A program made the position numbers and the translations under genes. The notes beneath the pieces were generated by a model, which was not told where the DNA came from, ran no database searches, and saw only the letters and a list, made by a program, of their open reading frames with translations. Shown one piece after another: positions 2,975 to 7,418 of a DNA stretch of 35,530 bases (within the stretch, counting starts at the first letter, position 1; each line of letters starts with the position of its first letter). This DNA is from Leptolyngbyaceae cyanobacterium C42_A2020_001 (lineage in GTDB: Bacteria > Cyanobacteriota > Cyanobacteriia > Leptolyngbyales > Leptolyngbyaceae), in assembly GCA_015272515.1 (NCBI GenBank), contig JACYLN010000024.1, positions 142,073-177,602 of the forward strand, given 5' to 3'.

Positions 2975-4381
2975 ATGAGTGAGTTTTTACCAGCGGTGAT
3001 TGAACTCAGCTATCTGGTCGCTGCCACTTTGTTCATCATTGGCTTAAAAAAGCTGGGATCACCTGCCAGCGCCCGGCGTGGTAATACGATCGCCTCCGTA
3101 GGAATGTTAATTGCGATTGTGGCAACCCTGCTGCACCAAAACGTTTTGAATTACGAAATGATTCTGGTGGCGATTGGGATCGGCTCCGCGATCGGAGCAG
3201 TCATGGCGTATCGGGTAGAAATGACCGCGATGCCGCAGATGGTCGGTCTGCTCAACGGCTTTGGTGGTGCCGCATCTGCCCTGGTTGCAGTGGGCGAATT
3301 TTGGCGCTACATCACCAGTGTTGAAGCTGTTCCCCTCAGCGAAACGATCACGATTGTGGTGAGTGTGTTGATTGGGGGAGTCACATTTACAGGCAGTTTG
3401 CTGGCATTTGTAAAGTTGGAAGGCTGGATCAGTGGTTCGCCCATCACGTTTCCATTCCAGCAGCCGTTTAACCTGACACTGCTAGGTGCATTTTTGGTTG
3501 CCAGCGGATTTCTGATCGTCGATCCCCATCAACCAGTTGTATTTCTCGGCTTAATTGGCATTTCCCTCGTATTGGGGATTCTATTTGTGTTGCCAATTGG
3601 GGGTGCCGATACACCCGTCGTCATCTCCCTGCTCAACTCCTTCTCTGGCTTAGCTGCCAGCGCTGCTGGGTTTGTGTTGATGAATAATATGCTGATCATC
3701 GCAGGTGCGTTGGTTGGCGCGTCTGGGATCATTTTGACGGAAATCATGTGTAAGGCGATGAACCGTTCTCTTGCCAATGTGCTGTTTAGTGCCTTCGGTT
3801 CAGCTCATACGGCATCAACTGGCGGTTCAACTGGAGTGAGTGGCGATCGCGTTCTACACCAGATCGATACGGAAGAAGGCGCAATGATGTTGGGCTATGC
3901 CAAATCAGTGGTGATTGTGCCCGGTTATGGAATGGCAGTAGCTCAGGCACAACACGCTGTTCGCGAACTGGCAGATCAGCTAGAGCGATTGGGAGTAGAC
4001 GTGAAGTACGCGATTCACCCCGTTGCTGGACGGATGCCGGGACACATGAACGTCCTGCTGGCAGAGGCAAACGTGCCCTACCCCAAACTGCACGATATGG
4101 AAGACATCAACCCCGAACTTGATCGCGTAGACGTTGCTCTGGTGATTGGCGCAAATGATGTAGTGAATCCGGCTGCCCGCCACGATAAGGACAGTCCTAT
4201 TTATGGAATGCCTATTCTAGAAGTGGATAAAGCCCATCACACCATCGTCATTAAGCGCGGCATGAATGCTGGGTTCTCAGGCGTGGAGAATGAACTGTTC
4301 TACAAAGACAAGACAATGATGCTGTTTGGTAGCGCAAAGTCTGTTGTAGAGCAGCTTGCAGCAGCCGTCAAAGAGTTTTAG
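2975..4381 (+). CDS. pntB: NAD(P) transhydrogenase beta subunit
   Basis: A 468-residue protein combining a membrane domain with the NADP(H)-binding domain III. About the first 270 residues contain many hydrophobic helices with the family stretch MTAMPQMVGLLNGFGGAASALV. The C-terminal domain holds VVIVPGYGMAVAQAQHAV (the NADP fold), HPVAGRMPGHMNVLLAEA and the highly conserved GANDVVNPAAR. Length and motif order match complete PntB. It completes the operon with pntAA and pntAB. Downstream, a palindromic repeat and a second inverted repeat fill the gap to the convergent STAS gene and could end transcription. In a cyanobacterium the complex adjusts the NADPH/NADH ratio in low-light or mixotrophic growth. 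Confidence 0.96.
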   Translation: MSEFLPAVIELSYLVAATLFIIGLKKLGSPASARRGNTIASVGMLIAIVATLLHQNVLNYEMILVAIGIGSAIGAVMAYRVEMTAMPQMVGLLNGFGGAASALVAVGEFWRYITSVEAVPLSETITIVVSVLIGGVTFTGSLLAFVKLEGWISGSPITFPFQQPFNLTLLGAFLVASGFLIVDPHQPVVFLGLIGISLVLGILFVLPIGGADTPVVISLLNSFSGLAASAAGFVLMNNMLIIAGALVGASGIILTEIMCKAMNRSLANVLFSAFGSAHTASTGGSTGVSGDRVLHQIDTEEGAMMLGYAKSVVIVPGYGMAVAQAQHAVRELADQLERLGVDVKYAIHPVAGRMPGHMNVLLAEANVPYPKLHDMEDINPELDRVDVALVIGANDVVNPAARHDKDSPIYGMPILEVDKAHHTIVIKRGMNAGFSGVENELFYKDKTMMLFGSAKSVVEQLAAAVKEF

Positions 4382-4401
4382 CCGGAGCGATAACGCTCCA
4401 C

Positions 4402-4509
4402 TTAGGGATGAGAATTGATTAAAAATGAAAAGTTAAAAGTTCAAGATGGCTACCAATCAAGCTTTGCCACTTTTAACTTTACATTTTTAAATTATTCATT
4501 GTCCTAGGG
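4402..4509. repeat. Palindromic MITE-like repeat, copy 1
   Basis: The left end (TTAGGGATGAGAATTGATT, then AAAAATGAAAAGTTAAAAGT) and the reverse complement of the right end (CCTAGGACAATGAATAATTT, then AAAAATGTAAAGTTAAAAGT) are largely the same sequence, giving arms of about 40 bp around a short centre. A second copy lies at 5432-5541; the two share long identical blocks such as TAAAAATGAAAAGTTAAAAG and GCTTTGCCACTTTTAA. It carries no coding potential. Confidence 0.75.
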
Positions 4510-4529
4510 TCGGCTCAACAGCATCAAAG

Positions 4530-4588
4530 GAGAAAAGACGGAGACAAAGAGGCATCGAATTTTCACCCTTTGTCTTGCGCCTTTTCTC
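4530..4588. terminator. Imperfect inverted repeat between convergent pntB and STAS gene
   Basis: GAGAAAAGACGGAGACAAAG (4530-4549) is matched by the reverse complement of 4568-4588 (GAGAAAAGGCGCAAGACAAAG) with a loop of about 18 bases. It lies between two genes that converge, so a bidirectional terminator is a reasonable inference, but there is no clean U-tract. It may equally be a degenerate intergenic repeat. Confidence 0.35.
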
Positions 4589-4653
4589 TTTCGTCTTCTC
4601 AAGGAGTCCAACCTGGTGATTGAGGCGGTAGCAAAATTTAGGAACTTTGCCTC

Positions 4654-4977
4654 TTAATAAGCCTGGTTAAACTCAGTCTGGCTTGGGAAAATTTCAAAGA
4701 CTTGATCCATTCCGGTGATTTCTAGCAGCATCCGAGCTTGCTCACACACAGAGCACAGAGCGAGTTTGCCACCCACTGCCCGGGTTGACTTAAAGGCATT
4801 GACCAAGCCACCCAGCCCAGAACTATCGATGAATGACACATTTTCCAAGTCAACTAAGACTTGGATGTTTCCGCCTTTGACAAATTCATCGACTTCACGA
4901 CAAAGTTGACTTGCCGTAGAACTATCCAGGATTCCTGATGGTTTTATGACTTTAGTTTCGGAATTCATGAGTTGCAT
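4654..4977 (-). CDS. STAS-domain anti-sigma factor antagonist
   Basis: A single STAS domain of 107 residues, like SpoIIAA/RsbV, which binds and neutralises an anti-sigma kinase when unphosphorylated. The signature VSFIDSSGLGGLVNAF (about residues 48-63) carries the serine that the kinase phosphorylates (Ser52 or Ser53). The preceding IQVLVDLENV strand and the later GGKLALCSV strand fit the fold. I chose the ATG at 4977; a TTG at 4986 lies closer to a purine-rich AGGAAAGAG and is an alternative. No anti-sigma kinase or PP2C phosphatase is in the window, so its partners are encoded elsewhere. It stands alone between two copies of a palindromic repeat. Confidence 0.9.
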   Translation of the reverse strand: MQLMNSETKVIKPSGILDSSTASQLCREVDEFVKGGNIQVLVDLENVSFIDSSGLGGLVNAFKSTRAVGGKLALCSVCEQARMLLEITGMDQVFEIFPSQTEFNQAY

Positions 4978-5158
4978 TGATCTCAAGCTCTTTCCTAGTT
5001 GATGTATTTTCGCATCAAAGCGATCGCTACAAAATTGCTTTAGTAGCTAAATATAGAGTTCCCTGAACCTGCACCCAATTCAACAGAGATGGCTAAATCT
5101 TTGTGGTGGCTTCAAAATAAATCAAACAGAAGCAGATTTACAACCATCTAAAAACCAT

Positions 5159-5201
5159 GTTTGATAAAGACTTGGTAACCCAGATGGCAAGGTTATCAAA
5201 C
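5159..5201. promoter_or_regulatory. Two-part stem-loop upstream of the STAS gene
   Basis: GTTTGATAA (5159-5167) is a perfect 9-bp reverse complement of TTATCAAAC (5193-5201). Inside it, CTTG (5171-5174) can pair with CAAG (5188-5191), giving a stem, a small internal loop and a second stem. It lies about 180-225 bp before the STAS start on the opposite strand. It could be a leader structure, an operator or a remnant of a small palindromic element; nothing in the sequence decides. Confidence 0.35.
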
Positions 5202-5431
5202 TGTTTGTAGCCACTGCTACACTGAAAATTGTGATCGCGATGCTTAAATTTTCCTAACGCGACCGTTCATGCACCTGAATCTATCACAGCACACTTAAAA
5301 GCAAATCGCCAACTCCTTGCACATCTGAAAGTCGGACAGCCATAATTTTCATGGAAACTTAGTAAATTATTCTCCGATGATGATTCTGGTAAATGTTATT
5401 TGAAGATTGAGAGAATTTTTGAAGGATTTGA

Positions 5432-5541
5432 TTTAGGAGTGAGAATTCATTAAAAATGAAAAGTTAAAAGTTCAAACTGGTTGCTAATAAAGCTTTGCCA
5501 CTTTTAATTTTGCATTTTGAATTATTCATTATCCTTAGGAG
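5432..5541. repeat. Palindromic MITE-like repeat, copy 2
   Basis: Same element as at 4402-4509, in the same orientation. The left end reads TTAGGAGTGAGAATTCATTA and the right end, reverse-complemented, CTCCTAAGGATAATGAATAA. The inner arms around AAAATGAAAAGTTAAAAG again face each other. It ends about 100 bp before the PBP2 start, so it may sit in that gene's promoter region. Confidence 0.75.
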
Positions 5542-5639
5542 TTTATTCAGATTTGTAATCGTTCTGAATAAGTATCTTTCCAGATTGCTCGGTTTCGTTG
5601 GGAAATGAGATAAGAACACCTATTCACTACGAAGTAGCA

Positions 5640-7418
5640 ATGGCTAGTGGGCTTTCCTTCGTATCTAAAGATCGGCTGGTCAATCTTACGTTGACTCAGC
5701 GATCGCGTCGGGCGATCGCACTCATTTTGTTGGGGAGTGCTCTGGTTGCGGTGTGTGGTGCTCGTCTGGCACAACTGCAAATTTTGCAGGGAAATTACTA
5801 TCGAGAACGGGCGGAGAAAAATCGCATCGCGCTGATTCCGATTCCGGCTGATCGAGGGAATATTATTGATCGAAACGGCAAGTTGCTTGCAGCCAATCGA
5901 TTGGCGCGATCGGTGTATTTGCGCCCTAGAGAGCAAACCAAAGAGCAATGGGCAAAAACGGCAGAGCACCTCGCTCCAATCCTCAACATTCCTGCTAGCG
6001 AGATCTTAGATAAACTCAAGCAATCTGGCTATCGTGCGGCAATGCCAATTCGCATCAGTCGCAATCTGTCTCTGGATGCCTTTGTCACTTTAGCCGAGAA
6101 AAATAATCAGTTTCCCGGCATTGAGATTCGAGGAGAATCGAACCGCTATTACCCAAACGGCAAGTTGGCAGCTCACGTTCTTGGCTATATCAGCGAGGCA
6201 ACGGCTGCTGATTTGAAGGCAAATCCAGATTACCCCGTTGGAATGCTGGTTGGGCAAATGGGGATCGAACGACTGGCCAACGAATCTTTAAAGGGGGTAT
6301 GGGGTGGTCAAGTGGTTGAAGTCGATGCCTCCGGACGAGAGATCGAAAATTTAGGCATCAAACAATCAATTTCTGGAGAACCAGTTCGGGTAACGCTGGA
6401 TGTTGAGTTACAGAAAACGGCTGAAAAAGCATTGGCAAACCGTCGAGGAGCAGCGGTTGTTTTAGACGTAAAAACGGGGGCAGTTTTGGCGTTGGCAAGT
6501 GGTCCTGCTTTTGATCCCAATCTGTTCACCCGACGCATTTCTAAAGCAGAGTGGCAAGAGCTACAAAATCAAGATGACCCATTTCTCAACCGCGCCCTTC
6601 AGGGCTATCCCCCTGGTAGCACCTTCAAGGTGGTAACCGCTACTGCTGGAATGCAATCGGGCAAATTTTTCCCAGATTCGACCTTAATGACTTATGCCGC
6701 CATTAATTTGGGCGGGCATCTGTTCCATGAGCATGGTGCGCCTCAAGGCGTGATTGGGTTTCGAGATGCGTTAGCGTTTAGCAGCAATACTTTTTTCTAC
6801 CAGGTGGGATTAGCAACCGGACCTGAGCAAATTTCCAAGTGGGGACAGTCGTTGGGGATTGGAAAGGTAACCGATCTGGGTTTGGATGGGGGCAGTCACG
6901 GGTTAATTCCTACGCCAGCCGAGAAAGAAAAGCTGTTCAAAGAGCCGTGGTACGGGGGTGATACGGTGAGTATGTCGATTGGGCAGGGCTTGGTGCAGGT
7001 AACTCCCTTAGAAATGGCGGTAGTCTATGCTGCGATCGCCAATGGCGGCTATCGCGTGCAACCCCACTTGTTAGCTGCCCAAACTGCCACTCCTGCTACA
7101 AAGCCTCAGAAGATTGGACTCAACCCTGATACTCTCGCGGTAATTCGTCAGGGATTGGCGGCTGTTGTGCAGCAGGGCACTGCCCGCCGATTAAATGATG
7201 GTGTGATTCCGCCAACAGCTGGTAAAACAGGCACCGCAGAAGTGTTAGGGCAACGCGATAATTCACTCTTTGCTGGATTTGGACCTGTTAACAACCCCAA
7301 AATTGCGGTGGCAGTTGTGGTTGAAAACGGTGGCTATGGAGCGGAGTCGGCGGTTCCCATTGCCCACGAAATTTATAAAACCTACTTTAAATCGGCAAAG
7401 GGCAAGCGGGGGCGGTAG
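5640..7418 (+). CDS. mrdA: Penicillin-binding protein 2 (elongation transpeptidase)
   Basis: A class B penicillin-binding protein that cross-links peptidoglycan in the elongation machinery with RodA. Counting from the ATG at 5640 (592 residues): a short cytoplasmic tail, one membrane anchor (AIALILLGSALVAVCGA, about 25-41), the N-terminal dimerisation module with the class B motif ADRGNIIDRNGKLLA, then the transpeptidase domain. All three catalytic motifs are present: STFK (nucleophile Ser327), SSN (381-383) and KTGTAE (Lys529). The frame extends 14 codons upstream to a TTG at 5598, but the ATG better fits the usual short cytoplasmic tail. The stop lies 7 bp from the end of the convergent rhomboid gene. 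LD-carboxypeptidase nearby also acts on peptidoglycan. Confidence 0.93.
   Translation: MASGLSFVSKDRLVNLTLTQRSRRAIALILLGSALVAVCGARLAQLQILQGNYYRERAEKNRIALIPIPADRGNIIDRNGKLLAANRLARSVYLRPREQTKEQWAKTAEHLAPILNIPASEILDKLKQSGYRAAMPIRISRNLSLDAFVTLAEKNNQFPGIEIRGESNRYYPNGKLAAHVLGYISEATAADLKANPDYPVGMLVGQMGIERLANESLKGVWGGQVVEVDASGREIENLGIKQSISGEPVRVTLDVELQKTAEKALANRRGAAVVLDVKTGAVLALASGPAFDPNLFTRRISKAEWQELQNQDDPFLNRALQGYPPGSTFKVVTATAGMQSGKFFPDSTLMTYAAINLGGHLFHEHGAPQGVIGFRDALAFSSNTFFYQVGLATGPEQISKWGQSLGIGKVTDLGLDGGSHGLIPTPAEKEKLFKEPWYGGDTVSMSIGQGLVQVTPLEMAVVYAAIANGGYRVQPHLLAAQTATPATKPQKIGLNPDTLAVIRQGLAAVVQQGTARRLNDGVIPPTAGKTGTAEVLGQRDNSLFAGFGPVNNPKIAVAVVVENGGYGAESAVPIAHEIYKTYFKSAKGKRGR

Follow-up and report, generated by a model that had tools for sequence, protein, structure and literature searches.

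A single STAS-domain gene in the genome of Leptolyngbyaceae cyanobacterium C42_A2020_001 is bracketed by two palindromic repeats. The question that this locus raises is whether the repeats belong with the gene, as the ends of a unit that carries it or as control elements of its neighbours, or whether they came to lie beside it separately. The window analysed here is a stretch of 35,530 nucleotides on contig C70 of a 5.55-Mb draft of 149 contigs (genome G000 in our numbering). The initial annotation regarded the repeats as possible non-autonomous, MITE-like elements, which could move or delete the enclosed gene or act as terminator and promoter modules. It proposed a genome-wide copy count, a search for flanking target duplications and for a transposase with matching ends, and a comparison with relatives that might lack the interval between the copies; only two copies, absent from relatives and conserved in position, were to indicate a local regulatory duplication instead. 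Our analysis shows that the two repeats are very probably decayed copies of one MITE family, inserted separately beside a pre-existing STAS gene.

A repeat search of the window identified 4402–4490 and 5433–5521 as an ungapped match of 89 nucleotides, 87% identical and in the same orientation, with a repeat-to-repeat spacing of 1,031 bp and the STAS gene in between. Both intervals start with the flanking TTA; the ends of the two bodies (100 and 99 bp, Table 1) were set by family alignment together with direct reading of the letters. The description of two palindromic, same-orientation elements around the gene is thereby confirmed. The palindrome of copy 1 is imperfect, its arms at 4412–4440 and 4469–4497 being 86% complementary, and the consensus of the family described below folds into a long hairpin, so that the terminal inverted repeats characteristic of a MITE are present. 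The RNA fold z-scores on the plus strand are −4.4 for copy 1 and −3.1 for copy 2. No open reading frame (ORF) of at least 80 amino acids in the ORF list overlaps either copy. The product of the gene between them matches the Pfam STAS domain with an E value of 5.8e-19. A second palindrome lies between pntB and STAS, at 4529–4590. Its fold is strong whichever strand is taken (z −2.5 and −3.0), and it may be a bidirectional terminator, although the terminator scan gave no site there. This palindrome is single-copy and was rejected as a member of the family.

Table 1. Positions in the window of the two elements, their flanks and the enclosed gene, with the family copies that lie at stop codons (by locus)
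Feature	Position or loci	Strand	Remarks
Left target-site copy TTA, element 1	4402..4404		Inside CTTAG; direct reading and family alignment
MITE copy 1, 100 bp	4405..4504	+	Between convergent pntB and STAS; absent at the matching place in G002
Right flank TAG, element 1	4505..4507		No intact TNA copy
STAS-domain gene, 110 aa, TTG start in ORF list	4654..4986	-	Present in G002 without the elements
Left target-site copy TTA, element 2	5433..5435		Direct reading and family alignment
MITE copy 2, 99 bp	5436..5534	+	Divergent region between STAS and PBP2-like gene; empty site in G002
Right target-site copy TTA, element 2	5535..5537		Direct reading, family alignment and G002 empty site
Family copies at an ORF stop codon	L032, L034, L039, L040, L045, L046, L047, L050		8/30

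The genome-wide copy count used a covariance model, for which the 18 full-length copies among an initial 30 loci were taken. The model gave at least 64 distinct loci in the same genome (E ≤ 1e-3), some of them fragments; this is a lower bound, as 150 of 1,950 candidates were scored. Blastn found at least 40 places (40 of 114 candidates scored), and the remaining 15 blastn matches are palindrome arms at the same or nearby places. With up to two mismatches, the terminal pattern matches 49 times in the genome versus once for the reversed control; with up to three, its matches in the window are at copy 1 and copy 2 only. Given the number of loci, the excess over the control and the restriction to these two places in the window, we conclude that the repeats are not a product of chance. 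The family is approximately 99 bp long, with ends GGAATGAG...CATTGTCC and no room for a transposase gene, and is thus short, multi-copy and dispersed, as expected of a MITE. Among 41 other genomes of the same taxonomic family, searched with stricter filters than the genome itself, three contain matches at E ≤ 1e-4, namely G011 (24), G002 (1) and G007 (1). A strict pattern scan of a named genome collection, which possibly does not include the genome studied here, returned four stretches, three in the MAG Leptolyngbyaceae cyanobacterium RU_5_1 and one in a Bacteriovorax MAG. The combination of two copies only, none in relatives and a conserved position, which was to mark a local regulatory duplication, is therefore not what was found. 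The proposal of a non-autonomous MITE-like element is supported by the copy number, and also by the TNA duplication and the empty site in G002 described below.

Thirty of the at least 64 copies were available with flanks of 1.5 kb. None of these lies wholly within an ORF of at least 100 amino acids, and their neighbouring genes are tandem in 16 cases, convergent in nine and divergent in five. Some copies contain nested repeats of other kinds, which suggests that the family has some age. Small repeats or insertion-like pieces, for example TATAGCC...GGCTATA, were seen in or beside MITE copies at L118, L120, L134, L051 and L101, and several repeat families seem to be present in the genome. At about 149–185 of locus L165 (contig C124) there is a minimal derivative of about 30 bp, in which only the two ends are kept.

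The target site was analysed from an alignment of 70 loci (the 64 and six weaker ones), using the 34 copies with both ends intact (at least 6 of 8 positions matching at each end). The 3-bp flanks match exactly in 11 of these, where 6.2 would be expected (p 0.0125 by permutation); at the middle base of TNA the two flanks agree in 22/34, versus 14.2 expected; duplication lengths of 4–9 show no excess in the same 34 copies. The bases bordering TNA are C in 23/34 and G in 23/34. Taken alone, the duplication signal in this genome is modest. The MITEs of G007 that share these ends show exact 3-bp matches in 20/33, versus 9.1 expected (p 0.0002), where the search pattern itself favoured a left TNA and the duplication signal is consequently that of the middle base; no signal was found at lengths 4–8. 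This test took 33 of the 49 left-end matches in G007 and kept several with weak right ends (4 mismatches). The flanks agree solely in the 3-bp register, and we therefore conclude that C|TNA|G is the target of the family and that TNA is duplicated on insertion. The flanking target duplications are thus 3 bp long, as seen at copy 2 with TTA on both sides, while the right flank of copy 1, TAG, departs from TNA.

The locus was compared in eight relatives, and empty sites for copies 1 and 2 were checked against one genome, G002, which belongs to the same genus. On a single contig of G002, positions 3500–6500 of the window find their matches in the order pntB, STAS, upstream region and PBP2. Neither copy is present there, and the STAS proteins are 93% identical over 109 amino acids. 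In the copy 2 interval, 114 unmatched bases of the window correspond to 12 bases in G002, and the empty site reads TGA-CTTA-CC with a single TTA, compared to TGA-TTTA-G...CC-TTA-GG in the window. The copy 1 region in G002 is also without the element, in intergenic sequence that is too diverged for the junction to be read. The element-free order pntB-STAS-PBP2 and the 93% identity show that the STAS gene stood at this place without the elements.

The gene neighbourhood of pntB, STAS and PBP2 varies among the other relatives. STAS adjoins PBP2 in G003, from another genus (locus L090, 52% identical), with pntB on a separate contig, and G011 has a STAS relative (74%) on contig C184, a different contig from its pntB and PBP2 matches, with neither gene in the 2.6 kb examined. 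In G001, which is of the same genus and 84% complete, other genes follow pntB with no adjoining STAS, and no STAS match was found downstream of pntB in the 3.8 kb up to the contig end. The genes 3' of pntB that replace STAS in this genome (locus L246, contig C733) are unrelated, and the gene order shifts where copy 1 sits in the window. No copy of the family was found in G001. Because G001 is element-free and the window order occurs in G002 without the elements, nothing links this rearrangement to the repeat pair. On the question whether relatives lack the interval, STAS is missing beside pntB in G001, whereas recombination between the copies is not evidenced, that genome being free of the element.

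In the mechanism that we propose, a transposase acting in trans would have inserted the two copies independently, each at C|TNA|G with duplication of TNA. Both would have landed in the intergenic regions flanking STAS, with the gene already in place, and as the first base of the element is G and its last is C, CTNAG would be re-made at each end upon insertion. We infer that insertion took place after the split from G002, rather than that the elements were lost in G002, and that the family is mobilised in trans by a transposase of the IS5 family (IS1031-like). If 64 copies were placed at random, the chance that some two of them lie no more than 1,031 bp apart would be 0.53, with a mean of 0.74 such pairs, and G011 has another close pair, on contig C214 at 3855 and 4662. 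A close pair is therefore expected by chance, and the pair in the window is not special. In our reading, the copies are insertions in decay that have no conserved role, although individual copies may still affect their neighbours.

Three other explanations were weighed. The common orientation of the copies, their 87% identity and the single gene enclosed, together with a pntB that lacks an adjoining STAS in G001, could be taken to mean that they are the ends of a composite unit which moves or deletes the STAS gene. We find this scarcely credible, given that STAS is at the same place in G002 with the elements absent, that it lies beside PBP2 in a second genus (G003), that G001 has no copy of the element at all, and that a close pair is expected by chance. 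In a composite transposon the gene travels with its flanking copies; here the gene of G002 is in place without them, and the suggestion that the pair moves it is not supported. It is also highly improbable that the repeats are palindromes of the REP/RAYT or IS200/IS605 type, moved by a tyrosine (HUH) transposase. Being short, palindromic and dispersed between genes they resemble such repeats, but the 3-bp duplication and the terminal inverted repeats fit DDE transposition. HUH elements of the REP and IS200/IS605 kind are not known to make a target duplication, and a duplication is present here.

A conserved regulatory function, with the elements serving pntB, STAS and PBP2 as hairpin modules (RNA regulators or terminators), is unlikely as well. 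In its favour are the strong hairpins, the location of copy 1 where two genes converge and of copy 2 in a divergent promoter region, and the overlap of copy 1 with two of the four promoter-like matches (4464–4493 on the plus strand and 4518–4491 on the minus strand). However, covariation in the hairpin of 18 copies does not exceed that in shuffles: 88.1% of cells are paired, versus 88.4% when shuffled, and pairs changed on both sides number 3, versus 4.0, so that compensatory base changes of the kind that mark a structured regulatory RNA were not seen beyond the chance level in these copies. There are no terminator-like sites, versus 1.3 expected, and the four promoter-like sites are near chance (2.6 expected, sd 1.7). 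No Rfam family was matched at gathering score, the one weak match having an E value of 0.87; G002 is without both elements; and the neighbours of the 30 copies described above are mixed. Apart from the two promoter-like matches overlapping copy 1, the covariation and the site scans thus speak against terminator or promoter modules, and separate insertion of two MITEs remains the explanation that we favour.

The transposase with matching ends was not found among the four Pfam families searched. Matches in the genome number two for PF01609 and one for PF13586, with none for PF13340 or PF13359, and beside these matches no MITE-like end next to TNA was found within 5 of 16 mismatches. No autonomous IS with the ends of the MITE was found using these families in the 149 contigs, in which, as in any draft, an IS may be missing or broken. 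At 13 of the one-ended places of this genome and at the listed G007 matches, no transposase ORF was found between two matching ends, with the exception of L204 (below); the places read proved to be additional MITEs, degenerate ends, nested insertions or probable matches by chance. A partial DUF4096 match lies near a MITE end in G011 (contig C227), with no complete IS. A 1.4-kb sequence in G007 (L204) was rejected as the partner, because it is an element of the IS110 family that lies within a MITE. A true partner IS would begin GGAATGAG or GGACAATG and be flanked by TNA.

Direct reading of the genome showed an end AGAGCGCATTTCTAAA at the start of two contigs: on C41 it is immediately next to the CTAAG of a MITE, and on C96 it lies beside part of a DDE transposase. 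These two places suggest an IS5-type element which shares the target of the MITE and has different ends. In G007, a sequence beginning GAGGGTGTTTTAAAAG is inserted at CTTAG inside a MITE with the same ends (L199); we take this sequence to be IS1031-like. According to PMC12016507, a 3-bp TNA duplication characterises the IS1031 group of the IS5 family, and the MITE family has this duplication in common with it. The ends differ, in that the IS5-type elements encountered here begin GAGACTGTTT (L237 of G007, with a DUF4096 match) or GAGGGTGTTT (L199 of G007) whereas the MITE begins GGAATGAG; ends shared with an IS1031-type IS were found at none of the IS loci examined. Nezha is likewise a cyanobacterial MITE, and is likened to the present family by kind alone, not by sequence or duplication. 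NuwaII transposons, from the IS5-related PHIS superfamily of eukaryotes, prefer the target C|TNA|G according to PMC4482050 and so share the target signature of the family; being eukaryotic, they are cited for the target only. The type II MITEs of Anabaena sp. 90, which PMC3542288 describes as 77–541 bp long, 132/147 intergenic and in a genome without a matching IS, are also cyanobacterial and mostly intergenic, a likeness of description and not of sequence. In listings of the open-licence literature, no paper that describes the element by its target, host or name was found.

The MITEs of G007 and G011 have ends like GGAATGRGAA and the target CTNAG, as in the window family. The interiors of the complete G007 copies are formed by several unrelated hairpins, and one G011 subfamily has yet another. 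The left-end pattern with up to two mismatches gives 49 matches in G007, some of which look like chance or degenerate matches, versus none for the reversed control. With slightly more doubt than confidence, we suggest that these elements may form a modular MITE superfamily within this cyanobacterial family, with the window element as one branch, which would combine shared ends (GGAATGRGAA) and the target C|TNA|G with interiors that are exchangeable across genera, and for which landing on a stop codon would be harmless. We note in addition that IS110-family transposase sequence occurs at the same interior site of three MITE copies in G007 (L201, L204 and L218), as if it targeted the MITE; the transposase of L204 matches Pfam Transposase_20 and DEDD_Tnp_IS110. 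IS110 elements are known for guided, site-specific insertion.

As regards stop codons, the stop of an ORF of at least 100 amino acids lies inside the junction in 8/30 of the copies with 1.5-kb flanks (Table 1), versus 6/84 for exact CTNAG sites in non-coding parts of the window and flanks (one-sided Fisher p 0.009). In three of those eight copies, however, the junction deviates from exact CTNAG, and dropping them leaves 5/30 (p 0.13). With its initial G and terminal C, the element re-makes a TAA or TAG stop within CTNAG on insertion. The idea that insertion at a stop codon does no damage is suggestive only, and the modular superfamily is for that reason graded lower.

The paired repeats around the STAS gene are thus explained by two independent insertions, which removes the tempting reading of a composite element. 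The stop-restoring target offers a small, testable idea of how such elements stay harmless. The definition of a cyanobacterial MITE family by its ends and its C|TNA|G target is usable both in the hunt for its transposase and in tracing insertions among closely related strains.
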